Shown here in pieces: positions 10,447 through 41,970 of a stretch of DNA of 42,122 nucleotides (position 1 is the first letter of the stretch; every line of letters starts with the position of its first letter). Made by a program: the position numbers and the translations under genes. Below the pieces are notes generated by a model that was not told the origin of the DNA, made no database searches, and saw nothing but the letters and a program-made list of their open reading frames with translations. The DNA is from a virus: IMG/VR virus record IMGVR_UViG_3300046817_000512, positions 1-42,122 of that record; one strand, 5' to 3'.

Positions 10447-10833
10447 CTATCCCGGGCCGGGCAGGTATTCGAGCCAGAAGGCGCAGGCGCCGACCGTATC
10501 CGGGCCACCGGTCAGAGCCGCCGTCCAGTAGATCGGCGTGTCGGCCAGGAAGGGGCCCACGGCGGCAATGGAGATCGGCAAGTCGATCCGGCCAGCCGCC
10601 TTGACGTTCTGCGCGGCCAGCACCTGGGCGCCACCCGGCGCGGTGCCCAGGGCAATCGTCAGGGTGGCGGCGTCGAAGGCCACCGAGGTCACGAAATGGG
10701 CGCTCAACAGGACCGCCGAAGACCCCGGAACGACACCCACCAAGCCGCCGCCCAGGTTCACCTGGGCCGGGCCGACCTGGGCCGAAATCTCGTGGATCAG
10801 CTGAGGTGCGTTTTTGCGTCCGCCAGTGGCCAT
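10447..10833 (-). CDS. Decoration-like capsid protein, paralogue 3
   Basis: The 128-residue product starts MATGGRKNAPQLIHEISAQ and ends LEYLPGPG. It is a clear paralogue of the next two genes upstream: all three begin MATGGRK, share an NxxxLxLGxxPGGxxxxAAxxxKxxGR core and a DTPIY-type motif, and end YLPGPG. Small beta-rich proteins encoded directly after the major capsid gene commonly decorate the capsid surface. It is the most diverged of the three. The neighbours are spaced by 10 bp, giving one operon. Confidence 0.65.
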   Translation of the reverse strand: MATGGRKNAPQLIHEISAQVGPAQVNLGGGLVGVVPGSSAVLLSAHFVTSVAFDAATLTIALGTAPGGAQVLAAQNVKAAGRIDLPISIAAVGPFLADTPIYWTAALTGGPDTVGACAFWLEYLPGPG

Positions 10834-10843
10834 GGTTCTCTCC

Positions 10844-11218
10844 TCAACCCGGACCCGGCAGGTAATCGACCCAGACGGTGATCACCCCCGCCGTGGGGGC
10901 CGCGCCGGTCGAGCCCAGCGTGTAGTAAATCGGCTGATCGACGGAGTACGGCCCCGCCGAACCAATCGGGACCAGGGCGTCCACCCGCCCCACCGCCTGA
11001 ATGTTGACGGCGGCGGCAATACCCGAACCGCCCGGCGCGCCGCCCAGGCTGAGGGTGTTGGTGGTCGAATTGAAGGCCTGCGACGTGTAGGCGTGATAGG
11101 CCGAGGCCACCGCGCCTGCGGGCAGCACACCGATCAGGCCCTGGGTCTGGCCGAAGCCGCCCTGGCCGCTGATTTCGTGGATCACCTGAAGCTGGTGTTT
11201 ACGTCCGCCCGTGGCCAT
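10844..11218 (-). CDS. Decoration-like capsid protein, paralogue 2
   Basis: This 124-residue middle copy of the triplicated family starts MATGGRKHQLQVIHEISGQG, contains FNSTTNTLSLGGAPGGSGIA and IYYTLGSTGAAPTAG, and ends DYLPGPG. It is closest to paralogue 1: the segment FNSTTNTL and the block around YYTLGSTGAAPTAG are shared with it nearly unchanged. The DNA around the starts and stops is also repeated (CTCAACCCGGACCCGGCAGG at 10854 and 11228), which points to tandem duplication. A capsid-surface role is inferred from position after the major capsid gene. Confidence 0.65.
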   Translation of the reverse strand: MATGGRKHQLQVIHEISGQGGFGQTQGLIGVLPAGAVASAYHAYTSQAFNSTTNTLSLGGAPGGSGIAAAVNIQAVGRVDALVPIGSAGPYSVDQPIYYTLGSTGAAPTAGVITVWVDYLPGPG

Positions 11219-11228
11219 GCGCGTCTCC

Positions 11229-11606
11229 TCAACCCGGACCCGGCAGGTACTGCACCAGCGCGATGGCGGCGCCCGCCGTGGGCGCCGCCCCGGTCGAGCC
11301 CAGCGTGTAATAGATCGGCGTATCCACGCTGAACGGGCCGCCCGTGGGCGGCACCGGGTTGGTGGGCGTGCGCGCCACGGTTTTCAGGTCGGTGGCGGCG
11401 AGGATTTGGGTTCCCCCCGGCGTGGTGCCGAGCGCCAGAGTGTTTGTCGTCGAGTTGAAGGCGGTCAGCGCAAAGATCGTCGCGGCGTCGATGATCGCCC
11501 CGACCGGCAGCACGCCGACGACCCCCGCAATCGGGCTCGCCGGGCCAAGCTGCACGCTGATTTGGTGCATCGCCTGATACTGGGTTTTGCGTCCGCCCGT
11601 GGCCAT
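11229..11606 (-). CDS. Decoration-like capsid protein, paralogue 1
   Basis: The 125-residue product is the copy nearest the capsid gene, 9 bp after its stop. It starts MATGGRKTQYQAMHQISVQL, carries FNSTTNTLALGTTPGGTQIL and the GPFSVDTPIYYTLGSTGAAP block, and ends QYLPGPG. A position-specific Pro/Thr insertion (RTPTNPVPPTGG) distinguishes it from the other copies. The predicted product is beta-rich. I infer a capsid decoration or stabilisation role, possibly with the three copies occupying non-equivalent sites or forming a mixed trimer. Confidence 0.65.
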   Translation of the reverse strand: MATGGRKTQYQAMHQISVQLGPASPIAGVVGVLPVGAIIDAATIFALTAFNSTTNTLALGTTPGGTQILAATDLKTVARTPTNPVPPTGGPFSVDTPIYYTLGSTGAAPTAGAAIALVQYLPGPG

Positions 11607-14609: not shown

Positions 14610-14770
14610 GCTCCGGTCTCCAAGAATTGCAGCAGCCGGACGGCGCCCGCGACCACCCCGGCCACGTCCTGATTGAGGCGGTTGGCCTGGGCGAGCGCGA
14701 TGGCCAGCGACAGGGCCTGAAACTTCTGTTCGTCGGTCGGCGGCGGGGTGGGTGGCGTGGGCGGCGGCAT
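14606..14770 (-). CDS. Small Pro-rich protein between portal and scaffold
   Basis: This short 54-residue frame begins with a Pro/Thr stretch (MPPPTPPTPPPTDEQKFQAL) and continues as an amphipathic helix (SLAIALAQANRLNQDVAGVV) ending LLQFLETGA. It is supported by tight packing: its ATG overlaps the TGA of the portal gene and its TGA overlaps the ATG of the scaffold gene (ATGA at both ends). No family is recognised. It may be a small head-assembly factor. I infer that it is a real gene from the coupling alone. Confidence 0.7.
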   Translation of the reverse strand: MPPPTPPTPPPTDEQKFQALSLAIALAQANRLNQDVAGVVAGAVRLLQFLETGA

Positions 14771-16842
14771 CAGGCGGGTCCTCCGGGTTGCTGGCCGGTC
14801 GGCGTCATCGGCGCGGCTTCAGGGTTCATGCCTTCGCCCGGCGCGCCGTACCCGGCGACCGGCTTTTCGGCCAGGACGGTGCGCGACAGGTTCGGCTTCG
14901 GCGCGGCGCCGCCCGAGGCCTGAAGGAAGTCCACGCCGAGCCCGATGTGGGTGGCGTGGGCGTCGGTCACGTCCTTGAACGCCTTGGCCTTGTTCAGCTG
15001 GGCGGTGGACGACTTCTGGGCGGTGTCGGCCTGCTTGTTCGCCATCTCGGCCTGCTGCGCGGCCACCACGTTCGGGTCGGGCGGCTGGGCGGCCTTGGCG
15101 CGGATGTCGTTGGCCAGCTTGTTCGCCACCACGGCGGGGATCGGCAGGTAGGGGATGATGTCGGCCAGGGTCTCCGGCCCGATCAGCTGGGCCTGCAACA
15201 GCTGCGGCAGCAGCGGCATGAGGACCGAAATCACCTTGGCCTTCTGGTCCGGGCCGGACGGCGCCTCATCGACCACCACGTCATAGTGCTGGGCGTCGAG
15301 GCTGAGGGCTATCGGCACGTACTGCGCCTCGCCCTGCTGCACGATCCTGACCAGCTTGTCGGGCGGGAAGAACACGCTCATCTGCGACAGCAGCAGCTTG
15401 CCCTGGTTGCGCTGATAGCGGCGCTTGGCGTCGAAGAAGGCCGACAAAATCCCGTAGGCGGCCTGCTTGCGCTGGGCTTCCAGAACGCCCGCCTGGTCGC
15501 GTTCCACCAGCCCCAGGATTTCTTCGTTCACCCCGGTGGTGGCCTTCACCATGTCGCGGGCGAATTCCATAAGCTGGAACAGCGCCGCCTGCACGGGCGG
15601 CGGGGTCTTCGGCAGCATCTTCGACCCGTGGGCGCCTGACAGCGCGCCGGGCTTCAGCCACGTGATCTTGTCGGTGGCCGCCCAGCTGTTCTCGAACTGG
15701 CGGATGTCGGAAACCGCATCCTCTTCCAGCGCCATGCCGCCGTTCGCGTTGGTGCGGACGATGTGCAGGACTTCGGAGTAGAGCTTGTTCACGAACCGGC
15801 CAGGATCGACCATCGGCTTGACCAGCCCGAACCACGTGCCCCGGTTGCGGTCGCGCTTGCCGGTGATGCACTTGTAGCGGAAGTCGCCCTCGGGCAGCTG
15901 TTCCTTGAACAGCAGCTGGCCGTCGCCGACGAAGGCCCGATAGAACACCTTCTTCTTCGACTTCACGTGCGGCGTGCCGCCCGGCAGCTGGTCGAACTCG
16001 GCCTGGGTGTGCGACTTCAGTTCGACCACGTTCGGGTCCTTCGCCGAAGGCGCCTTGGCCAAGTAGGCGGGCTCGCGGTCCCACCATTGCCATTCCGAAA
16101 CAATCACCGTGTCGGCGGCCATCGACCCGCCGTCGCCGAGCATCCCGTGGGTGTAACGCTGGCGCGGGTTCACCACCGTCAGGCGCTTGCCGCTGTCGAT
16201 CCCGGCGCCCTCGCCATCGAGGTCTTCGCGCCCGATCTCGGCTTTGAAGTCATCGAATTCGTCCGGCGACATGGGGATTTCGCGCTTCAGGTAACGCTTG
16301 TCCTCCAAGCACCGCTTGCGGGCGGCGGGGTCGGCCAGCATCTGAAGCGGATCGACCCGTTCCTTGATCAGGTCCACATCGGCGTCCTCGACCTCGGGCC
16401 GGGTCTCCGTCCAGCCCATGCCGCAGACCAGGGTGTCCCAGAAGGCCTCACTGTCCTCCTGATCGCCGTTGCACTCCTGGGAGACGTAATCGGCCCCCTG
16501 GGTGAGCACGTCCGACACCCCGGTGTCGCCGACCTCGCGCGGGTAGAACATCGCCTGCTGGCGGTTGCCGATCTCGGCGCCCTGCACGGCATCGACCACG
16601 GGCCCGATCAGGTTGAAGGTCACCGGGATTTTCCCGGCCTCCTCCATCATCGCGACCTCGGCGTCGGTCCACTGGTCGCCGGACACGAAGCCGTACCAGA
16701 AGCGGGCTTCTTCGCGCCATTGGCTCCAATGCGCCTGAAGGGCCACGTCCCAGTCGTCGAACCGCTTCAGCAGCGCCTCGTCTTCGGCGTCCTGGCCAGG
16801 GACGCCTTCGTCATCGAACTGCGGCCCGCGCACGTCAGCCAC
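14770..16842 (-). CDS. Portal protein, P22-like
   Basis: This 690-residue protein has an early WREEARFWYGFVSGDQW segment (about residues 41-58). FNLIGPVVDAVQGAEIGNRQ follows at about 76-95, which is the typical core of P22-type portal proteins (dodecameric DNA gateway). The middle contains wing and crown regions (YKCITGKRDRNRGTWFGLVK) and a conserved VNEEILGL-type segment (about residue 435). The C-terminal barrel is Ala/Gln-rich. Length is normal for the family. It is encoded upstream of the scaffold and capsid genes and lies far from the terminase genes, which sit 5.7 kb away across the plus-strand island. Confidence 0.9.
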   Translation of the reverse strand: MADVRGPQFDDEGVPGQDAEDEALLKRFDDWDVALQAHWSQWREEARFWYGFVSGDQWTDAEVAMMEEAGKIPVTFNLIGPVVDAVQGAEIGNRQQAMFYPREVGDTGVSDVLTQGADYVSQECNGDQEDSEAFWDTLVCGMGWTETRPEVEDADVDLIKERVDPLQMLADPAARKRCLEDKRYLKREIPMSPDEFDDFKAEIGREDLDGEGAGIDSGKRLTVVNPRQRYTHGMLGDGGSMAADTVIVSEWQWWDREPAYLAKAPSAKDPNVVELKSHTQAEFDQLPGGTPHVKSKKKVFYRAFVGDGQLLFKEQLPEGDFRYKCITGKRDRNRGTWFGLVKPMVDPGRFVNKLYSEVLHIVRTNANGGMALEEDAVSDIRQFENSWAATDKITWLKPGALSGAHGSKMLPKTPPPVQAALFQLMEFARDMVKATTGVNEEILGLVERDQAGVLEAQRKQAAYGILSAFFDAKRRYQRNQGKLLLSQMSVFFPPDKLVRIVQQGEAQYVPIALSLDAQHYDVVVDEAPSGPDQKAKVISVLMPLLPQLLQAQLIGPETLADIIPYLPIPAVVANKLANDIRAKAAQPPDPNVVAAQQAEMANKQADTAQKSSTAQLNKAKAFKDVTDAHATHIGLGVDFLQASGGAAPKPNLSRTVLAEKPVAGYGAPGEGMNPEAAPMTPTGQQPGGPA

Positions 16843-18346: not shown

Positions 18347-18679
18347 TCAGGCCTTCTCGCCGGTCTTCTCGCCCGTGTCGGGGTCCTTCGACCCGTCCGT
18401 GTTGTTCGACACGAAGGTCCGCAGCTGGTTGTCCGCCGGATCGACCCGCACATCCCGGTCGAGCCCCCGGTCGTCCTTGCCGATGTCCACCGGCTCGCGG
18501 CGCGGGTCGGCCACGTCCGGCTGCGCCAGGGTCTCGGCGGCGGCCCGGTTGGCGTCCTGCACCCGCGCCTGGGCGGCTTGCGCGGCCTTCTCGTCGGCTT
18601 CGTCCGCCTGGGACGCCTCGGGCGCTGTCCGCTTCGGGTCTTCGTGCGCCTTCTCGTCGGCCTTATGGTCCTTGGTCAC
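18347..18679 (-). CDS. Highly charged hypothetical protein, first gene of the portal operon
   Basis: This 110-residue product is dominated by Asp, Glu, Lys and Ala (MTKDHKADEKAHEDPKRTAP), with an Ala/Gln helix around residues 28-50 and a disordered-looking C-terminus. It starts with GTG at 18679 behind an AGGAG at 7-bp spacing. It is the first gene of the leftward virion operon and has a long leader with a promoter-like element at 18972-18994. No family is recognised. Charged small proteins at this position could be virion accessory proteins. Confidence 0.65.
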   Translation of the reverse strand: MTKDHKADEKAHEDPKRTAPEASQADEADEKAAQAAQARVQDANRAAAETLAQPDVADPRREPVDIGKDDRGLDRDVRVDPADNQLRTFVSNNTDGSKDPDTGEKTGEKA

Positions 18680-18847
18680 GGCTAGGCTCCTAGGTGTGTG
18701 CGGGCGGTGCAGATCGCACTTGGTCCGGTGGGGGATTTTGGGCGGTCCTGCGCGCGGCGGGCGGGTCCTCCGCGTGGGTCGGTGCGTCTTGCCCGTAGTC
18801 CGGTGAGCGGCTGGATTTCGGTGTGGGAGAGGTAGGTGGGTTTAAGA

Positions 18848-18887
18848 GCCCCCCCGCCCCCCCGCCCTCGCGAGGAGGGCCCCCCCG
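18848..18887 (-). other. G-quadruplex-prone tract with inner hairpin
   Basis: On the minus strand four G-runs follow each other with short gaps: a run of seven, then GGG, then two further runs of seven separated by single C bases. On the plus strand these are the C-runs at 18849-18888. GCCCTC/GAGGGC and the CTCGCGAG palindrome lie within it. It sits between the two divergent operons. Formation of a quadruplex is a prediction from sequence only. Confidence 0.5.
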
Positions 18888-18971
18888 ACCATGGTTCGGT
18901 GAACGCTGGTCGGGTGACGCTCGGCAGGGGGCGGGCAAGGCGTGACGCGGGGGCCATGGCGCGCGGGGTGC

Positions 18972-18994
18972 AAGCGTGCGCTTCAGCCCGTCAA
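18972..18994 (-). promoter_or_regulatory. Late-promoter-like element, copy 3 (before the portal operon, variant)
   Basis: On the minus strand it is TTGACG, then GGCTGAA, then GCGCACGCTT. It shares TTGACG and GCACGCT with the other copies, but the gap is seven bases instead of six and the 9-mer starts GC instead of AT. It faces the 18679 start, leaving a leader of nearly 300 bases that includes the G-run tract. The promoter role is inferred. Confidence 0.45.
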
Positions 18995-19276
18995 CGGGGG
19001 GAAGGCTGGGGGGAAAGCGGGCCAGCGGCGGCGGTTTCCCCCGGGAGGGTAGTTCCCTTCGAAGCAACCCGCCGCGGGCGAAAGCCGGTCAGGCGGGCCA
19101 GTTTGTGCGCCTGGTCGCGCATCGAAAAACGATGAACCCGCATCGAATTACAGAAAGATCGGGCGCGCGCCAGCAACACCCCTTCAGTGAGGCTCTATAC
19201 GTGGTCCCATGCGACCGTCTGACCCTCGCGCACGGGTGCAAATTGCCATTGCATCATACACCGTGACGGAGTAGGA

Positions 19277-19303
19277 AAGGCGTGCGGGCAGGCAGGCCCG
19301 CGC
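19277..19303 (+). repeat. 27-bp leader repeat with hairpin, copy A
   Basis: Twenty-seven bases (core GCGGGC-AGGCAG-GCCCGC, 19284-19301) are identical to 20195-20221. The homology continues with small differences up to and including GAGAAC-ATGACCCG at the start of both following genes. The core is a 6-bp perfect hairpin. It corresponds to the third hairpin of the repeated element described at 20146, 21443 and 21948, but the first two hairpins are absent here. Confidence 0.9.
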
Positions 19304-19320
19304 CTTTGGAACCCGAGAAC

Positions 19321-19512
19321 ATGACCCGTAAGGACTTCGAACTAATCGCCCGCGCCGTGCGCGGCCTCGACTGCTTTTCGTACCAGTATGACGGCGCCGA
19401 CATGCCGTCCGCCCGCTTTCAGGCCGCGACGGCTATGGCGGACGCGCTGGGCTCCACAAACCCCGCCTTTGACCGGGCCCGCTTCCTGACCGCGTGCGGG
19501 GTGCAATCGTGA
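19321..19512 (+). CDS. Small plasmid-type hypothetical protein
   Basis: The product has 63 residues: MTRKDFELIARAVRGLDCFS followed by a helical section (FQAATAMADALGSTNPAFDR) and FLTACGVQS. Proteins starting MTRKDFELIA and ending with this type of RFLTACG tail are common on plasmids and phages of proteobacteria, with unknown function, as I remember it. I chose the ATG at 19321 because it sits right after the GAGAAC that is shared with the 20239 gene. Its TGA overlaps the GTG start of the ArdA-like gene (GTGA), so the two are coupled. Confidence 0.75.
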   Translation: MTRKDFELIARAVRGLDCFSYQYDGADMPSARFQAATAMADALGSTNPAFDRARFLTACGVQS

Positions 19513-20129
19513 CCCGCGAGCTAGACCTGACCGCCGACCTGATTGACGTGCGCGACATCATCGCCCGCGTGGAAGAGCTTCGCGAAACCGCCACGCCTTG
19601 GGGCGCCGGTTTCAACATGCCCGGTTATATGCCGGACAATGACCCGGGCGCCTTCGCCACGTGGGAAGAGGCGCGCGACAGCCTCGCCGAAGATATGGAA
19701 CGGTTCGCCGAAGAAGACGCGGAAAGCGCGCAACCCGAAGAGCAATCGGACGATTTTGCCGAGGCGGTGAAGCGCCTGCGGGCCCTGACCCCGGGCGAGG
19801 AATTCGGCGAGACTGTCGGGCCCTATCACTACTGGCTTTCGCGCTCGCATGACGTGGACGTTCAGGAACTGGCGGACCTGACGGCGTTGCTCGCCGATCT
19901 GGCGGGCACTGGCGGTGATGAACAATTCGAGGGCGACTGGTATCCGATAACACTGATTGATCAAACCTACTTCAAAACCTACGCGCAAGAATTGGCCGAG
20001 GAGATCGGCGCCATAAACGCCGACGCCAGCTGGCCAAACAACTGCATCGATTGGGACAAAGCCGCCCGCGAACTGCGGATGGATTATACCTGCGTCACCG
20101 TGGGCGGGCGCGATTACCTGACCCGCTAA
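19509..20129 (+). CDS. ArdA-like antirestriction candidate
   Basis: This 206-residue acidic protein has a C-terminal third (FKTYAQELAEEIGAINADAS, WPNNCIDWDKAARELRMDYT, GRDYLTR) strongly resembling the conserved end of a plasmid and phage family often annotated as ArdA-like. ArdA proteins are acidic DNA mimics that block type I restriction enzymes. The many Glu/Asp residues (EDMERFAEEDAESAQPEEQS) fit. The N-terminal half does not obviously match classical ArdA, so the function is a hypothesis. It starts with GTG at 19509, overlapping the previous stop, and belongs to the hairpin-led island. Confidence 0.65.
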   Translation: MTRELDLTADLIDVRDIIARVEELRETATPWGAGFNMPGYMPDNDPGAFATWEEARDSLAEDMERFAEEDAESAQPEEQSDDFAEAVKRLRALTPGEEFGETVGPYHYWLSRSHDVDVQELADLTALLADLAGTGGDEQFEGDWYPITLIDQTYFKTYAQELAEEIGAINADASWPNNCIDWDKAARELRMDYTCVTVGGRDYLTR

Positions 20130-20145
20130 AATTTCCCCGCACATC

Positions 20146-20221
20146 GCGCCCCTGAGGCGCCCTAGGGCCCGGACCGGAAACGGTGGCGGGCCCGAAGGCG
20201 TGCGGGCAGGCAGGCCCGCGC
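20146..20221 (+). promoter_or_regulatory. Three-hairpin element, copy 1 (includes 27-bp repeat copy B)
   Basis: Hairpin 1 is GCGCC-CCTGA-GGCGC (20146-20160). Hairpin 2 (20165-20193) is GGGCCCG / CGGGCCC closed by an internal loop G / GG, then ACCG-GAAA-CGGT with a GNRA tetraloop. Hairpin 3 is GCGGGC-AGGCAG-GCCCGC (20202-20219). The same order with compensating base changes occurs at 21443 and 21948. It lies in the 109-bp gap between the ArdA-like gene and the 20239 gene and ends 20 bases before the ATG. Hairpin 3 lies within the 27-bp repeat also found at 19277. Confidence 0.8.
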
Positions 20222-20238
20222 TTTAGGACCCTGAGAAC

Positions 20239-20811
20239 ATGACCCGCAGAGACTTTGACTTCGGAAGCTGGGCAGGCCCCGGCGCCACCTCCACAATCGA
20301 GCGCGACGGCTTCACCCTGACCGCGACCTTGCACGCCGACGACTGCGCCGACGCGCCGTGGGATCGAGCGGACGGTCACGGGCCCGTCAGCGGCTGGCGC
20401 GGCTACGGCTACAACCAACATCCCACGAAGGCGCCGGGCGAACGGGTCCTAATCAGCGACGGGCGAAGCGCCCGCTTCTATGACTTCGCGGAAGCCGTGA
20501 AGCTCGCCCGCCGCGATGGCTGGGGAACCGCTGGGGACGCGGGCCTGACCCCCGGCGCCAAGGCGGCGCGGGCGGCGGAAGCTGACTTCGCCTACCTGAA
20601 ATCATGGTGCGACGATAAATGGTCCTACGTTGGCGTCAGCGTCACCATTGAACGCGACGGCGCCGAACTGGTCAGCGAATTCGAACACGCTCTTTGGGGC
20701 GTCGAAAGCAATTCGGGCGACTATCTCGCCGAAATCGCCGGGCAGGTCGCCGAAGAGGCGCTAGACGCCGCTGGCGCCGCATGGGCGGCCCGCGTGAATT
20801 GCGAGGCCTGA
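20239..20811 (+). CDS. Plasmid-type hypothetical protein
   Basis: This 190-residue protein starts MTRRDFDFGSWAGPGATSTI and contains IERDGFTLTATLHADDCADA, DGHGPVSGW and a later second IERDGAELVSEF segment. The middle has RSARFYDFAEAVKLARRDGW. The DGHGPVS-W pattern is one I associate with conserved proteins of unknown function on mobile elements. The first eight codons resemble the start of the 19321 gene because the leader repeat extends into them. No enzymatic motif is evident. The next gene begins 3 bp after its stop. Confidence 0.75.
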   Translation: MTRRDFDFGSWAGPGATSTIERDGFTLTATLHADDCADAPWDRADGHGPVSGWRGYGYNQHPTKAPGERVLISDGRSARFYDFAEAVKLARRDGWGTAGDAGLTPGAKAARAAEADFAYLKSWCDDKWSYVGVSVTIERDGAELVSEFEHALWGVESNSGDYLAEIAGQVAEEALDAAGAAWAARVNCEA

Positions 20812-20813
20812 CC

Positions 20814-21131
20814 ATGCGCGGCTTTACCGTAACTTACGACATCGTGACCCCCGAAAGCGCCGCCGAAGGCGACCACGCGGAATGTGGGCGGATTGACCCC
20901 TGGGGCTATCACTGGCCCGTCAACGGGGAAAAACAACCCGACGACAGCGACATGAGCTTGCGGCAGGCGTTGAACTACGTCTGCCCCCAAGAGGACGCGG
21001 GCGCGTGGTTCTCCGAGGCGGACGGGCGCGACGATTACCGCACGGGCGCCAATGAAACCCGCGCCCTTCACCCCCCGCGCAACATCACCCCCGCAAGCTA
21101 TGCGCGCCTCGCGCGCCTGCTGAAAATCTGA
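20814..21131 (+). CDS. Plasmid-type hypothetical protein
   Basis: The 105-residue product starts MRGFTVTYDIVTPESAAEGD and contains SLRQALNYVCPQEDAGAWFS and ALHPPRNITPASYARLARLL. The TPESAAEGD start and the HPPRNITPASY end form a well-conserved signature of a mobile-element protein whose function is not known to me. I chose the ATG at 20814, since the longer frame is out-of-frame noise over the previous gene. It is followed by an RBS-like GGAG and the next gene. Confidence 0.75.
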   Translation: MRGFTVTYDIVTPESAAEGDHAECGRIDPWGYHWPVNGEKQPDDSDMSLRQALNYVCPQEDAGAWFSEADGRDDYRTGANETRALHPPRNITPASYARLARLLKI

Positions 21132-21145
21132 CCGGAGCCTGACCT

Positions 21146-21427
21146 ATGCACAATCCCACGCCTGCCGTTTCCTGCCGCTATGGCGCGCCTATGGGCCGCT
21201 ACACGGGCCCCGACTATCTGGAAACAGAAGCCGGACGCATCAACCTTTGCCGCATCCGCCTTGACCGGGGCGGATATGACCCCGGTGGCGCCTACTGGGG
21301 CTGGGGCGCGCCGCTCTTCTACGCGTGCGACGGTGACGGCAATTCGCGGTTTTTCCGCGCCGCTGACCGGGCGGACGCGAAGGCGCAAATTCTCGCCGAT
21401 TACCCGGACGCGCGCTTCTACCGCTAA
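21146..21427 (+). CDS. Plasmid-type hypothetical protein
   Basis: This 93-residue product contains VSCRYGAPMGRYTGPD, INLCRIRLDRGGYDPGGAYW and a RAADRADAKAQILADYP tail. This pattern is familiar from conserved small proteins on plasmids and phages, again of unknown function. The ATG at 21146 follows GGAG at good spacing. Its stop is 16 bp before the next three-hairpin element, so the three genes 20239-21427 form one group between two copies of the element. Confidence 0.75.
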   Translation: MHNPTPAVSCRYGAPMGRYTGPDYLETEAGRINLCRIRLDRGGYDPGGAYWGWGAPLFYACDGDGNSRFFRAADRADAKAQILADYPDARFYR

Positions 21428-21442
21428 CCCCCCCAGCCCTTC

Positions 21443-21516
21443 GCGCCCTGACGCGCCCCTAGGCCCGCGCCGTGACCCGGTGGCGGGCCTTTGGCGTGCG
21501 GGGGGATGGCCCCCGC
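21443..21516 (+). promoter_or_regulatory. Three-hairpin element, copy 2
   Basis: Hairpin 1 is GCGC-CCTGAC-GCGC (21443-21456). Hairpin 2 (21461-21490) is AGGCCCG / CGGGCCT with an internal loop C / GG, then GCCG-TGACC-CGGT. Hairpin 3 is GCGGGGG-GATGG-CCCCCGC (21498-21516). Compared with copy 1, outer pairs change G-C to A-T in hairpin 2 and the stem of hairpin 3 changes on both sides, so pairing is kept while sequence varies. It ends 18 bases before the ATG at 21535. Confidence 0.8.
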
Positions 21517-21534
21517 TTTCGGAGAACGCCAGCT

Positions 21535-21750
21535 ATGGCCCTGCCTACCTCTTCCACGCCTATCGCGAAGTCCCTTCACACCCTGACCGTAATTCAGCAG
21601 GTCACCACGGCCATTGCGGGCCTAGATGAAAGCTACACCCTGCCGGAGGCCCTAGAGACTGCATTGCGGGTCCTGGGGCTGGCGGGCCGCCCGGACCCCT
21701 ACGGGCTGGCGGCGCGGGCCCTAGTCCTCCTGACGGGGGCCAAGGCGTGA
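21535..21750 (+). CDS. Small hypothetical protein
   Basis: This 71-residue protein starts MALPTSSTPIAKSLHTLTVI and is helical (TLPEALETALRVLGLAGRPD, then LAARALVLLTGAKA). I chose the ATG at 21535 because GGAGAACGCC precedes it and the three-hairpin element ends just before, as at the other genes. Its TGA overlaps the GTG start of the next gene. No family is recognised. Confidence 0.65.
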   Translation: MALPTSSTPIAKSLHTLTVIQQVTTAIAGLDESYTLPEALETALRVLGLAGRPDPYGLAARALVLLTGAKA

Positions 21751-21935
21751 GCGAGGAACACGGGGGCCCGCGCCCAGAACCCGAAATCGAGGGCGGGCAG
21801 GACTTCTACGCCTGCCGCCATGACAACCCATACCCGGAAGGGCACCCATACCGCCCGCGCTGGAAAGCCGGTTACGAACGCGCCCGCGACCGTGAAGCGG
21901 CGTGGCGCGACCGTCAGGCCCGCAAGGGGCTCTAG
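21747..21935 (+). CDS. Small charged hypothetical protein
   Basis: The product has 62 residues and starts MSEEHGGPRPEPEIEGGQDF. A central YPEGHPYRPRWKAGYERARD segment and an Arg-rich helical tail follow (REAAWRDRQARKG). A short acidic head and a P-x-R-x-x-W-x-x-G-Y-x-x-x-R motif are features of small phage proteins that I recall without a known function. It starts at a GTG overlapping the previous TGA and ends 12 bp before the third copy of the hairpin element. Confidence 0.65.
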   Translation: MSEEHGGPRPEPEIEGGQDFYACRHDNPYPEGHPYRPRWKAGYERARDREAAWRDRQARKGL

Positions 21936-21947
21936 AGCCCATACATC

Positions 21948-22018
21948 GCGCTGTAGCGCCCGAAGGCCCGGACCGGTGACGGTGGCGGGCCTAAGGGCGT
22001 ATCGGGCCCTGTAGGGCC
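21948..22018 (+). promoter_or_regulatory. Three-hairpin element, copy 3
   Basis: Hairpin 1 is GCGC-TGTA-GCGC (21948-21959). Hairpin 2 (21964-21992) is AGGCCCG / CGGGCCT with the G / GG internal loop and ACCG-GTGA-CGGT, again a GNRA loop. Hairpin 3 is GGCCCT-GT-AGGGCC (22005-22018), a sequence quite unlike hairpin 3 of the other copies but still fully paired. It ends 18 bases before the ATG at 22037. Confidence 0.8.
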
Positions 22019-22036
22019 GCAAACGGAGGGCGCCGC

Positions 22037-22393
22037 ATGACCGGGCCTGAACTAGAGGCGGCGCGCCATAAGCTGCGCCTGACCGCCGCCCAGCTGGGGC
22101 GCGCGCTTGAACTGACCGGGCGCGACCCGGGGCGCGACGTGCGCCGCTGGGAAACCGGCGCCTTCCCTCAGGTTCCCGGGCCCGTGCGCGTCGCGGTGCG
22201 CTACATGCTCGCCGAAGCTGAGGCGAAGCGGCGCGAGGCCCGCCAGCTGGCGGCGGCGGCGCGGCAGGTCGCCAGCCTTCGCGATAGCGGCTTTATGGAC
22301 CTGACCGGTCCGCCCGCGGCCGGACCGGAGTTCCGGGCGCCGACCCCTGGCGTGGGCCGCAGGAGGGGTAAGCCGCGCGCCATTGAAACCTGA
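22037..22393 (+). CDS. HTH transcriptional regulator of the island
   Basis: This 118-residue protein has MTGPELEAARHKLRLTAAQL followed by GRALELTGRDPGRDVRRWET. This is the helix-turn-helix pattern of XRE/MqsA-type regulators (recognition helix around residues 30-42, then the R-x-W-E-x-G motif). A charged helix follows (AEAEAKRREARQLAAAARQV) and then a disordered C-terminus. It is the last gene of the island and could control the island's own promoter. That is inference. Confidence 0.75.
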   Translation: MTGPELEAARHKLRLTAAQLGRALELTGRDPGRDVRRWETGAFPQVPGPVRVAVRYMLAEAEAKRREARQLAAAARQVASLRDSGFMDLTGPPAAGPEFRAPTPGVGRRRGKPRAIET

Positions 22394-22454
22394 CCCGGTT
22401 TTTCGGTCCGCTGTTATTCTGGACCCGAAAATTTCCCGCTGCCGATCCGGCCCT

Positions 22455-22484
22455 AGGCCCCCGGCGAGCGGGGGCCTTTCTTTT
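22455..22484 (+). terminator. Intrinsic terminator of the island
   Basis: AGGCCCCC-GGCGAGC-GGGGGCCT (22455-22477) is an 8-bp perfect stem followed by TTCTTTT. It closes the rightward transcript after the HTH gene. The bases in front (AAAATTTCCC, then CCCTAGGCCC) resemble those in front of hairpin 2 in copy 1 of the hairpin element, so terminator and element may share an origin. Confidence 0.9.
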
Positions 22485-22531
22485 GCGCCCAGGGGGCCTC
22501 TAAGCGCCCTATCCAAGCGCAGCGCAGGATC

Positions 22532-22578
22532 GGGGGCGTAGAGGCCTCCCGAGCCCGCGAGGGGGCCTCTACGCCCCC
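22532..22578 (-). terminator. 15-bp perfect inverted repeat at the end of terL
   Basis: GGGGGCGTAGAGGCC (22532-22546) and GGCCTCTACGCCCCC (22564-22578) pair perfectly around 17 bases. Three more pairs are possible inside. The stop codon of the terminase gene (22569-22571) lies inside the right arm. A partial extra copy of the right arm, AGGGGGCCTCTA, occurs at 22491-22502 and could pair alternatively. No T-run follows on the minus strand. I read it as the end of the terminase transcript, facing the island terminator. Confidence 0.6.
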
Positions 22579-24158
22579 CAGAGGCTGCCGAGTAGCCCAC
22601 GGCCCTTCCCGGGCCGCCAGCGGCCCCCTGGGGCCCCGCTGTCGATGGCCTTGACCGGCGCCGCGAAAGTCAGCGCCACCGCGTCCCAGCCGTCCGGGCT
22701 CCTGAGGCCCCGCTCCCTGATCTTCTCCTTGCTTTCCAGCACCAGAAACTGCCGGGCGTCGTACTTGTAGCCGGGGGCCACGGCGTCCGCGTGCAGCGCA
22801 TCGTCATCCGGGATGTCGGCCCCGCCCGGATCGGTCAGCCAGTCCTTTGACCGCATCCACATCTCAGCCCTGCGGTTGCGCGGGCCCGGGACCACATCGC
22901 CCCGGCTCGTGTAGATCGTCGGCTCTTGCGGGGCGCCGCCGAAATTCACGCCCTCGACCAGCTTCTCGTATTGCCCGCCCCAGTCGCGCAGGATGTCCAC
23001 AACGCCCGCGCCCGTGTTGCCCAGGTCGATGAACACCTTCGCCGGGGCCTCGTGGTCGATGATCGACTTGACCCAGTTCGCGCCTTGGATCGTGTCCAGC
23101 TTGTAGCGGCGTTCGACCCGCTCGACCTTGCGCCCCCGCCGCCAGGCGACCGCGAAACTGTCGTCGCCGAACCGCGCCGGGTCCACGCCGACGATCAAGC
23201 TGCCGAACGGCTCGCACGTGCGCTTCCGGGCCAGCATGACGATCTGGCCGGGGATGAAGGCGTCGTGGCCGGTGGACTGGAAAGCCTCGGCGGCGGTGGC
23301 CGGATACTCGGCCTTGAACAGGTTCGGGTCCTTCAGTTCGGCGATCTTCGCGCGCCGCCAGACCAGCTGCTGCACGCTGAGCCCGTACAGGGCCGCGTAC
23401 TCCTCCTCCTCCTCATTGACCTCAAACCCGAGAGGCGGTGGCCGGGCGTAGTCCGCCGACCAGAACCACGGGCAGAAGATCGCCTGATAGTCCCCGTCCC
23501 CGGCCTCGGCCTGCTGCCACCGTTCATGGAATTCGCCGCCGATCCCGTTGGCGGTGCTTTCCAGAATGATCTCGGTTCCGGGCAGGTCAGGAACCGTCTG
23601 CACGGCGCCCGCGAAATGGTCGCTGGCGTTCGGCCAGAAGGCGACTTCCGACCCGTGGAACAGCTGGATGGTCTTTGACCGGCCAATCGCCTTCGACCCC
23701 GCCGTGCCGACGCTGTAGCCGCTGTCCAAGCGGCTGAAGTAAAGCTCCTTGGCGTTGGCCGCCCCGGTCCCTGGCGCCATGCCCATGGGGCTGTGCTTCT
23801 GGAACCGCTCGACCATCCCGAACAGGTTGTTCGTCGCATCCTGTTCATGGGTCAGGATGAACACCTGACAGCCCTTGCGGTGGATCACCTGATGGTAAAA
23901 CCGCGCGCCGATATAGGTGCTGACGCCCTCCTGGCGGGCCTTCAAAATCAGCGCACGGACCTTCTGGGTTTCCCGCCGCTGTTCATCCAGCCGCTTGTCC
24001 ACATACTGCTGCACGCTGTTGAACCGCAGCGGCATAAGCTCGCCGGACTTCGGCCTGATCTTCAGGCACTCTTCGCAAAAGTAGCTGAGGTCATCCTTCC
24101 GCCGCTGGCGCCAAGCCTGTTCTTCCTGCGACATCCTGACGGGGGCGACCAGGGGCAT
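22569..24158 (-). CDS. terL: Terminase large subunit
   Basis: This 529-residue DNA packaging motor has an N-terminal ATPase: an atypical Walker A (LKARQEGVST, residues 72-81), the LFHGSEVAFWP segment near residue 166 (SE instead of the usual DE), and ESTANG (about 199-204) as coupling motif. The C-terminal nuclease of the RNase H type starts at VGVDPARFGDDS (about 324-335), with a further acidic residue in SPDGWDAVAL near residue 493. Length and layout are normal. It is encoded directly downstream of the small subunit, with a 101-bp gap that carries repeats. It docks on the portal and cuts concatemers. Confidence 0.92.
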   Translation of the reverse strand: MPLVAPVRMSQEEQAWRQRRKDDLSYFCEECLKIRPKSGELMPLRFNSVQQYVDKRLDEQRRETQKVRALILKARQEGVSTYIGARFYHQVIHRKGCQVFILTHEQDATNNLFGMVERFQKHSPMGMAPGTGAANAKELYFSRLDSGYSVGTAGSKAIGRSKTIQLFHGSEVAFWPNASDHFAGAVQTVPDLPGTEIILESTANGIGGEFHERWQQAEAGDGDYQAIFCPWFWSADYARPPPLGFEVNEEEEEYAALYGLSVQQLVWRRAKIAELKDPNLFKAEYPATAAEAFQSTGHDAFIPGQIVMLARKRTCEPFGSLIVGVDPARFGDDSFAVAWRRGRKVERVERRYKLDTIQGANWVKSIIDHEAPAKVFIDLGNTGAGVVDILRDWGGQYEKLVEGVNFGGAPQEPTIYTSRGDVVPGPRNRRAEMWMRSKDWLTDPGGADIPDDDALHADAVAPGYKYDARQFLVLESKEKIRERGLRSPDGWDAVALTFAAPVKAIDSGAPGGRWRPGKGRGLLGSLWGA

Positions 24159-31145: not shown

Positions 31146-31724
31146 ATGGACACCATCGGAAAACGCCTGACCGACGCCCGTAAGAAACGGGGCTTCGCGA
31201 CCGCCAAGGATGCGGCGCTGGCCATGGGCGTGGCGATCTCCACCTACACCCAGCACGAACTCGCCGAGCGGTTCCTGCCCGCCAGGAAGGCCGCCCTCTA
31301 CGCCGCCTTCTTCAGGACCGAACCGGAATGGCTGCTGTATGGCCGCACGGCCAACGGCGACGGGGGCCCGGCCTGCGTCCAGCTGGTCGATGAGGGTGGT
31401 GTCGAAGTCCGCGAAATTCCAGGTCCGCCCTGCCTGACGCCCCTGACGAAAGCCTATGAAATCAGTCAGAAAGACGGCATGGGCGAGGCTTTCGTCGGGT
31501 GGTGCGCGTTTTTCGAAATGCCGGAGGAAGAGAACGCGCCGATCTTGGAGGGCCCACTTTCGGTCGTCGCCGTGCGCGGTCCTCAGGGTTTGACCCTATA
31601 CGCCCGCCGCGTGCGCGCCTCAGCCATCCCCGGGCGGTTCCACCTGCTGCCGCTCCTGGGCGATCCTGAACTCGACGTGGAAGTGGTTTGGAACGCCCTG
31701 ATCACCGGATTGTGCCCGGCCTAA
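31146..31724 (+). CDS. CI-like prophage repressor
   Basis: This 192-residue protein has an N-terminal XRE helix-turn-helix (RLTDARKKRGFATAKDAALA, then MGVAISTYTQHELAER). The C-terminal region (ILEGPLSVVAVRGPQGLTLY, then ARRVRASAIPGRFHLLP) resembles the beta-rich oligomerisation part of S24-type repressors. I see no convincing Ser/Lys catalytic pair, so self-cleavage is uncertain. It is transcribed away from the Cro-like gene across the operator region. It should maintain lysogeny. No clear ribosome site precedes the ATG, so the mRNA may be nearly leaderless. Confidence 0.8.
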   Translation: MDTIGKRLTDARKKRGFATAKDAALAMGVAISTYTQHELAERFLPARKAALYAAFFRTEPEWLLYGRTANGDGGPACVQLVDEGGVEVREIPGPPCLTPLTKAYEISQKDGMGEAFVGWCAFFEMPEEENAPILEGPLSVVAVRGPQGLTLYARRVRASAIPGRFHLLPLLGDPELDVEVVWNALITGLCPA

Positions 31725-40495: not shown

Positions 40496-40739
40496 CACTG
40501 ATCAGATCGTCTACACCCCGGAGCAAGCTCGACGGGTCCTGGCGGTCGGCAAGACGAAGTTCTGGGCGGCGGTTAAGTCGGGTGAGATACCCACGTTCAC
40601 GTGGCTGGGGAAAACGCTGGTGCGGGCGGAAGACCTGACCGCCGCCCGCGACCGGGCGTTCGCTAAGCGGCCCACCGCCGCAGCGGCGCGGCCTTCGCGG
40701 TCTGCACGACTGCACAATAGTCCGCCCAGGCGCTCGTGA
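40485..40739 (+). CDS. Excisionase-like MerR-type HTH protein
   Basis: This 84-residue protein has IVYTPEQARRVLAVGKTKFW, then AAVKSGEIPTFTWLGKTLVR and AEDLTAARDRA. That is the winged HTH of excisionases and MerR-like helix_turn_helix_17 proteins (recognition helix near GKTKFWAAVKSG). The last 26 residues are a Ser/Arg-rich tail that lies antisense to the end of the integrase gene (77-bp convergent overlap). It most likely steers integrase towards excision. Confidence 0.75.
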   Translation: MAADTDQIVYTPEQARRVLAVGKTKFWAAVKSGEIPTFTWLGKTLVRAEDLTAARDRAFAKRPTAAAARPSRSARLHNSPPRRS

Positions 40740-41970
40740 TCTGGCGGCGCACGCCGACCTCAGCCGACCGGACATAGCGGCGGCGGGTCTTCGACCCGAC
40801 CGCGTGGGCGATGCACTTTTCCAGCAGCTTCTCGGAGTAGAGATGGTCGGACCCGTCCGGCAGTAGCTGGTCCTCGCCCCAGGTGCGGAAGGTCGAGCGG
40901 AAGCCGTGCAAGGTGATCTGGCGGTCCTCCATGGCCGGATCGACGTAAGGGCGGCCATCGGCGTCCAGGCGGGTGATCAGGTACTTCCGCAGGCCGGTGA
41001 CCGACACGCCGCGCCTCGGGTCCTTGCCGGGGAAGATCGGACCCGAGGCCGGGAACTCCGCGCCGACCATCGGCCTGACCTTCAGCAGGATGTCGCGGTG
41101 GGCGTCGGTCAGCGGCACGGCGTGTTCGCGGCGCATCTTCATCCGGCTGGCCGGGATCACCCAGCACTTGGCCTGCCAGTCGATTTCCGACCAGTCGGCG
41201 CCGCAGGTTTCCTGCGCCCGCGTGGCCGACAGGATCAGCCATTGCAGGGCCAGCGACATCATCTGGCGTTCGTTCTCGCCGCGCAGCTGGGCCATGAACT
41301 CGCCGATCCGGGCGTGGGGCAGCGACGGGTGGCTTTCTTCGTCCTCTTCGGACTGGCGCACGACCTGATCTTCAAGGTGGCCTTCCCACCGGAAGGGGTT
41401 CGACCAGCCGGGGGTCTTCACGGCCACGTTCAGCACCCGGTAGAGCCGCTGGCGCACGTCATCGGCCATCACCGGCGCCTTGGCGTAGTAGTCTTTCATG
41501 AGGGTGATCGCGTCGAGGTCGGTGACCTCTTCCGGCAGCATCTTCGCCACCCGCCCGATGCGGCCTTCCTGAAGGCTGTCGATCCAGGCCTGCTGCTGCT
41601 TTTCGCTCTTCGCCTTCTTCGCGATCACGTCGATGTTGTCGCGGACGAACTGGCCAATGCAGGCCTGCCGGGGGGCGTTCGCCTGCCGCACGATTTCCTG
41701 CTTGGCGGCGCGACGGGCGGCCCGAGGGTTCACGCCCAGGCCGACCTGCTTCAGGCAGGCCTCGCGCAGGATGCGGGCTTCGGCCAGCCCGACCTTGTTC
41801 AGTGAGCCCAGGCCGACTTCATCGGCCTTGCCGCCCCACTGGAACTTGAAGAGCCAGGACGCCGAAGTCGCCGACCGGATGTCGAGGATCAGGCCCTTGC
41901 CGTCATGCAGTTTGGCCGGGACACCCTTGGCCAGGGCGGCGTCGATGGTCTTCGTGGACTTGATCAGCAT
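40663..41970 (-). CDS. int: Tyrosine integrase
   Basis: This 435-residue protein has an N-terminal DUF4102-type arm-binding domain (LHDGKGLILDIRSATSASWL and related), a SAM-like core-binding part, and a C-terminal catalytic domain. The active residues are R251 (TRAQET), K278 (near SRMKMRREHAVPL), H355-x-x-R358 (LHGFRSTFRTWGED), H389 (IAHAVGSKTRR) and Y399 (RRRYVRS). This is the P4-type class that usually inserts at the 3' ends of tRNA genes. The start is at 41970, facing the junction region where attP is expected. The end overlaps the excisionase-like gene in the opposite direction. Confidence 0.9.
   Translation of the reverse strand: MLIKSTKTIDAALAKGVPAKLHDGKGLILDIRSATSASWLFKFQWGGKADEVGLGSLNKVGLAEARILREACLKQVGLGVNPRAARRAAKQEIVRQANAPRQACIGQFVRDNIDVIAKKAKSEKQQQAWIDSLQEGRIGRVAKMLPEEVTDLDAITLMKDYYAKAPVMADDVRQRLYRVLNVAVKTPGWSNPFRWEGHLEDQVVRQSEEDEESHPSLPHARIGEFMAQLRGENERQMMSLALQWLILSATRAQETCGADWSEIDWQAKCWVIPASRMKMRREHAVPLTDAHRDILLKVRPMVGAEFPASGPIFPGKDPRRGVSVTGLRKYLITRLDADGRPYVDPAMEDRQITLHGFRSTFRTWGEDQLLPDGSDHLYSEKLLEKCIAHAVGSKTRRRYVRSAEVGVRRQITSAWADYCAVVQTAKAAPLRRWAA

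Follow-up and report, generated by a model that had tools for sequence, protein, structure and literature searches.

In phage T7, the early RNase III sites are irregular hairpins placed between early gene groups, several per operon, which the enzyme cuts in the internal loop, and the early region also includes an anti-restriction gene. PeSLs, intergenic cassettes of several T4-type phages that sit at the borders of exchanged genes, are said to bear a stem-loop and reportedly carry an early promoter. The put elements of phage HK022, which belong to its early operons, are about 70 nt long and consist of two stem-loops with non-canonical internal pairs; two copies lie just downstream of promoters, and they act on both intrinsic and Rho-dependent termination with no dedicated trans-acting protein (PMC9378689). 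In cluster K mycobacteriophages, the SAS is a 13-bp repeat of the GGGATAGGAGCCC type at the start codon, and the ESAS, made of 17-bp inverted repeats, tends to follow gene families (PMC3203893). Small genes of unknown function crowd the early and accessory regions of phage genomes, and little is understood of how their relative dosage is set within long operons. A covarying RNA family that is tied to stop codons at cassette borders in unrelated phages, as described below, offers a concrete handle on this question.

The island and its three copies

The DNA analyzed here, hereafter the window, is a complete virus record from IMG/VR (42,122 bp). It encodes a terminase (22569-24158, − strand), a large gene that we read as the portal gene (14770-16842, −), an integrase-like gene (40663-41970, −) and a repressor-like gene (31146-31724, +), and because of this gene content the window is probably the genome of a temperate tailed phage. 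Between the terminase and portal genes, and in reverse orientation to both, lies an island whose products include an HTH protein and an ArdA-like anti-restriction protein. The island and its elements are as follows.

19321..22393, + strand: host island of eight small genes, on the strand opposite to the late genes on either side
19277..19340, + strand: truncated relative of the element, with AAGGCGT, hairpin 3, a ribosome-binding site and first codons, without hairpins 1 and 2
19321-19512 and 19509-20129, + strand: island genes 1 and 2, the second ArdA-like
20144..20201, + strand: copy 1 core; hairpin 1 at 20146-20160, hairpin 2 at 20165-20193 with GAAA loop, GGCGU end; R1 80.5 bits, R3 66.1 bits; 14 nt past the stop at 20129, with the ATG at 20239 37 nt on
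20200..20221, + strand: facultative hairpin 3 of copy 1, from folding
20239-20811, 20814-21131 and 21146/21191-21427, + strand: island genes 3 to 5
21441..21497, + strand: copy 2 core; hairpin 1 at 21443-21456, hairpin 2 at 21461-21490, GGCGU end; R1 66 bits, R3 50.4 bits; 13 nt past the stop at 21427, with the ATG at 21535 37 nt on
21498..21516, + strand: facultative hairpin 3 of copy 2, from folding
21535-21750, 21747-21935 and 22037-22393, + strand: island genes 6 to 8, the last encoding the HTH protein
21946..22000, + strand: copy 3 core; hairpin 1 at 21948-21959, hairpin 2 at 21964-21992 with GUGA loop, GGCGU end; R1 76.7 bits, R3 66.2 bits; 10 nt past the stop at 21935, with the ATG at 22037 36 nt on
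22005..22018, + strand: facultative hairpin 3 of copy 3 (GGCCC/GGGCC), from sequence and folding
22455..22477, + strand: ordinary intrinsic terminator closing the island, CCCCCGGCGAGCGGGGG then TTTCTTTT

The original prediction, made from the window alone, had described three copies of a three-hairpin element in front of gene groups, and all three lie where it had located them. From the end of hairpin 3 to the ATG (20239, 21535, 22037) the distance is 17-18 nt. Copy 2 differs in that the internal loop of its hairpin 2 is a C-G pair plus a bulged G, under a 5-nt loop, and hairpin 3 of copy 3 competes with an alternative pairing in the local 36-nt fold. The truncated piece is 88% identical to 20195-20258 and is the apparent duplicate of hairpin 3, ribosome-binding site and first codons of copy 1. 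In 100 shuffles the hairpin-2 sequence did not arise once, against two occurrences in the window. Individually, the three copies fold mildly better than shuffled sequences (z of −2.9, −1.6, and −2.2); because single-copy folding is just mildly unusual in such GC-rich DNA, the structure was tested comparatively.

Several other features of the window were recorded. By its sequence matches, the ArdA-like protein (19509-20129, +) appears chimeric: its first half resembles Caulobacter and Brevundimonas jumbo-phage proteins, and its last third resembles ArdA-like proteins from phages of Mycobacterium and Gordonia. Directly beyond the island terminator, a near-perfect 18-bp inverted repeat (GGGGGCGTAGAGGCCTCC / GGGGGCCTCTACGCCCCC) at 22532-22578 overlaps with the terminase gene at its 3′ end. 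Among the structural genes, three tandem small genes with the common start MATGGRK... (10447-11606, −) are probably triplicates of one gene of about 125 aa.

A covarying family in several phage types

The first covariance model was built from four copies, the three in the window and one in a terminase relative (L024) in which ACCG/CGGT is replaced by AGCG/CGCT, a compensated change; 80 terminase relatives were retrieved as the comparison set. Across the window and 13 loci of related phages, this model detected 29 copies (E ≤ 5e-4), all within the corresponding island, and a covariance search of the complete records gave no convincing match outside it. Later models (R2 and R3) and pattern scans of IMG/VR brought the total to 57 copies in 28 viral records, which contradicts the possibility, allowed for at the outset, that no further copies occur elsewhere. 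The additional carriers include other phage types, namely a 62-kb genome with five copies (G017), one with two copies that we read as Mu-like from one gene (L097), L108, and L104, as well as L125/L127 and the group L132-L140. Downstream of the elements in the L137/L138 group are genes that look early- or replication-like. The roles given as portal, integrase, repressor, Sak4-like and Mu-like are putative readings of the sequences. Carriers span several phage types, with a Mu-like phage and siphovirus- or podovirus-like early operons among them. Nearly all of the records are metagenomic, and gene calls outside the window come from a simple codon-usage script.

The family is bounded in distribution. 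R3 found no match among about 55 more distant terminase relatives, which speaks for its specificity, and the element is absent from six sister phages (L016, L017, L019, L020, L021, and L028). A plasmid search, also suggested with the original prediction, returned matches at chance level only. A nucleotide search of cultured phages gave matches within genes or at chance level, and a covariance search of 12 cultured records yielded no convincing match. Matches of one exact pattern outside the window in IMG/VR fell in unrelated sequence without the hairpin-2 fold and were rejected, as was the single hit of one strict pattern in 84,980 bacterial and archaeal genomes, a chance palindrome in Streptomyces. 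Rfam 15 has no gathering-level match in the window; near the copies, chance-level matches alone appeared at E ≤ 10, and four other loci had none at E ≤ 1. On the comparative sequence evidence, the element is a structured RNA family not in Rfam 15.

We aligned 54 copies (51 distinct sequences), and the alignment supports the core of the original prediction: the structure is conserved, covaries, and recurs between gene groups. Hairpin 1 usually has 4 bp. Hairpin 2 has a stem of 6-8 bp, an A/GG internal loop adjoining an invariant U, a 4-bp upper stem and a small loop, and the element ends in a conserved tail, (U)GA-AGGCGU, often followed by a third, variable hairpin. Standard pairs fill 98.3% of the paired cells, both-sided changes occur at 13 of 15 pairs, and sliding the structure by 1-3 columns leaves 33-50% paired. 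The anticipated covariation is strong, with 142 compensated cells against 45.2 ± 4.3 in shuffles, counts that kinship among the sequences can inflate. For this reason we used L024 and L129 as a natural control: the two carry the element at the same F7-to-F0 junction, with near-identical downstream flanks, yet hairpin 1 reads GCGC/GCGC or GCGG/CCGC and the upper stem of hairpin 2 reads GCG/CGC or CGC/GCG, each with compensated changes. In distant members the entire hairpin-2 stem is swapped with pairing kept (GGCCCG/CGGGCC, GGCGGG/CCCGCC, AGGAGG/CCTCCT, AGCCTCCG/CGGAGGCT).

The finer claims drawn from three copies fared unevenly. The G-C to A-T exchange in the outer pair of hairpin 2 recurs across the family (pair 28-66 in A5 is AU in 35 and GC in 2), and the 1x2 internal loop proved nearly invariant, with G at column 58 in 51/51 sequences, G at column 59 in 49/51, and U at column 56 in 50/51. 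The GNRA loop is common, not universal. Hairpin 3 does differ each time and is often present, but it folds clearly better than shuffles in just 18 of 51 copies, about a third, and is for that reason regarded as facultative. The least variable letters are the GG of the internal loop, the U preceding it, and the GGCGU of the tail. This U pairs with G or A, and wobble pairing in the family is one-sided, with 40 G.U against one A.C; the excess favors the mRNA sense strand, with 35 of the 40 G.U coming from this one pair.

Other foldings were considered. In the window copies, folding gives an alternative longer hairpin in which GCGCC/GGCGU encloses hairpin 2 and excludes hairpin 1. The sequence of this outer stem is conserved and the stem can form in many copies; its mean pairing run of 4.37, against 4.08 in swapped controls, leaves it unproven and it was set aside. 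A loop-to-tail pseudoknot, tried by eye, was inconsistent, and the element matched no known class of self-cleaving ribozyme in Rfam. In L130 (5130-5249 and 6029-6150), an extra long hairpin (CATCCC...GGGATG) is inserted between hairpins 1 and 2, which indicates that the two are separable.

Placement relative to stop codons

An upstream stop codon lies within 45 nt of the element in 55 of the 57 copies, and 43 of these 55 start 10-13 nt past it (median 12, interquartile range 11-12). The gap to the next start varies far more (median 37 nt, interquartile range 26-43). The lead from stop to element is C-rich (48% C, 15% G). Intergenic copies in the mRNA sense were found in the window and in L018, L025, L030, L033, L126, L130, L137, and L138; the remaining junctions of element-bearing operons are packed, with −4 to about 35 nt between genes, as are the islands of sister phages without the element. 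At one island junction of two element-free phages (L016 12170-12223 and L017 8825-8883), a simple 8-bp hairpin with a GAAA loop, GGCGCGGC-GAAA-GCCGCGCC, follows the stop.

So close a tie to the upstream stop speaks against a translation leader for the next gene and against a promoter. The original prediction had offered two functions, an RNA leader controlling translation of each gene group and a DNA hairpin active in single strands. The contrast between tight stop and loose start distances weighs against the first, and the second is disfavored by the sense-strand copies, the one-sided wobble, and the lack of promoter-like hexamers. A single-stranded DNA promoter of the Frpo type, as in plasmid leading regions, where the folded strand makes a −35/−10 promoter close to the gene start, would sit well with the ArdA-like anti-restriction gene in the same island. 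Nevertheless, the spacing is tied to the upstream stop with no fixed start distance, no σ70-like promoter or promoter-like hexamers were found in 18600-22700 (other promoter types would escape detection), and the genome is that of a double-stranded-DNA tailed phage. We know of no obligatory single-stranded entry form in such phages and find this explanation hardly credible. The element is likewise a stem-loop-bearing intergenic unit at the borders of exchanged genes, as PeSLs are, but the same region lacks a σ70-like promoter, the one type that the scan could see. With SAS and ESAS it shares the character of phage-specific sense-strand repeats before a subset of genes, about half of them with an inverted repeat (PMC3203893); it differs in sequence, in being tied to the upstream stop, and in its independence of the downstream gene.

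A stable GC hairpin directly past stop codons could also be an intrinsic terminator, in which such a hairpin precedes a T-rich tract, or a REP-like passive block at the 3′ end. The 10 nt past the core hold no T run longer than 2 nt in any of the 57 copies, contrary to the earlier concern that the hairpins are simple terminators, whereas the true terminator at 22455-22477 has a T run; moreover, the letters of the internal loop and tail are more conserved than such a role would need. These roles are very improbable explanations of the family, and a passive 3′ block is possible as part of a processing or stabilization mechanism. The element probably acts on the message, not as promoter or terminator, and the evidence is easier to reconcile with a cis-acting part of polycistronic mRNA than with a DNA element.

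The edge of a terminating ribosome, at about 12 nt past the stop, coincides with the start of the element, and in the L137 group the next hairpin shows a Shine-Dalgarno sequence in its loop, as might be expected of a translational insulator or regulator that uncouples the terminating ribosome from the next gene or controls the next initiation. That interpretation is decidedly unlikely in our judgment, given that the distance to the next start varies widely, the core leaves the ribosome-binding site uncovered, and the downstream genes are unrelated.

Cassette borders and candidate modes of action

Island maps show small gene groups bordered by the element. At the F3-F2 junction, L024 and L025 are without the element, whereas L129 and L033 have the element together with two different genes. 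Copies are more alike within a phage than elsewhere (identity 0.766 vs 0.691; 0/2000 permutations), with little dependence on a shared downstream gene (0.718 vs 0.703). Copies are homogenized within a phage independently of the gene that follows, and mark borders where gene cassettes come and go; the element flags gene-group borders in metagenomic phage genomes.

The presence and absence of the element with differing genes, its homogenization, and its occurrence in unrelated phages are also what a mobile or recombination linker at the DNA level would produce, a PeSL-like or attC-like boundary of cassette exchange whose hairpin is recombinogenic or selfish. This is unlikely to be the main explanation: the tight stop spacing and one-sided wobble indicate mRNA, pairing is selected while the letters vary, a constraint that recombination based on sequence would not require, no associated recombinase was found, and no attC-type core was apparent in the alignment. 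An attC site has integrase boxes and is used as a folded strand by an integron-type integrase. The element is probably also subject to mobility or gene conversion.

No phage protein family was present in 8/8 element-bearing and 0/3 element-lacking phages, as a shared trans-factor would be, which makes a host factor more likely. F0, a 70-aa orphan family (MALPT.STPIAKSLHTLTVLQQV...) with a window member at 21535-21750, occurs in nearly all element-bearing phages of the window group, usually with the element directly upstream; as a candidate trans-factor it was rejected, since for all its frequent co-occurrence in that group it shows no tie to the element sequence.

The explanation we favor, tentatively, is a cis-acting intercistronic mRNA element that would split early and accessory operons into gene-group messages through processing or stabilization. 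For such local cutting, capping, or stabilizing, the nearest working parallel is the T7 RNase III sites, which are likewise irregular hairpins lying between the genes of a polycistronic phage mRNA. A ribosome standing at a stop codon reaches roughly 12 nt beyond it. After an unpaired C-rich lead of about that length, hairpin 1, hairpin 2, and the tail would follow just past the front edge of the ribosome, so the element could remain folded while the upstream gene is translated. A host factor, either an endoribonuclease such as RNase III or an RNA-binding protein, would then recognize the bulged hairpin, and the message would be split or capped, so that every group of one to three genes would have mRNA ends, stability, and dosage of its own. 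What the comparison establishes is the element itself, its structure, strand and position, and its modular gain and loss; action at the RNA level, recognition by a host factor, and an effect on processing or stability are inferred. Several copies per operon likewise suggest a local effect, be it cutting, capping, or stabilizing the message, and the element may serve as a portable part that balances or insulates operon genes.

The analogy to T7 is imperfect. Beyond what those sites have, the element shows a separate covarying hairpin 1, and unrelated phages share its internal-loop letters and tail motif. An invariant bulge and tail point to a specific partner, and because a plain RNase III site needs neither the A/GG loop nor the GGCGU tail, they suggest one more specific than that. 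Moreover, hairpin 2 pairs over roughly 10-12 bp, which is little for a strong RNase III substrate without help from the unproven outer stem, and this counts against processing.

The likelihood of a host factor, with no carrier-specific phage gene, makes put-like antitermination the strongest rival. HK022 put suppresses termination through the zinc-binding domain of RNA polymerase. On this view the hairpins of the element would bind the transcribing polymerase, which would then ignore pausing, Rho, and terminators, and copies placed after stop codons would restore processivity where untranslated RNA invites Rho. Compared by description, HK022 put has a similar architecture of two stem-loops with non-canonical internal pairs (PMC9378689), and both families belong to phage early or accessory operons and lack a dedicated or shared phage factor; the invariant bulge letters of the element are also in keeping with this role. 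Yet put lies downstream of promoters and one copy acts over at least 10 kb (PMC9378689), whereas the element is intercistronic, a median of 12 nt past the stop, in 1-5 copies of about 57 nt with a hairpin 1 of about 4 bp. Up to five intergenic copies spaced 0.4-1.3 kb apart suggest a local role, and we hold put-like antitermination to be possible though doubtful. A comparably doubtful possibility is a novel, protein-free class of phage RNA that would bind the transcription or translation machinery past stop codons and locally reset transcription (anti-polarity); it would have spread as a plug-in among unrelated tailed phages, with uniformity within a phage arising from gene conversion or adaptation to the host partner.

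An AT-rich motif, CAAATTGC, recurs in the intergenic regions of these GC-rich phages (window 19239 and 34578; L023 8754; L026 10597; L028 373; L124 2383). It is possibly an operator or promoter, and it occurs twice immediately 3′ of an element.
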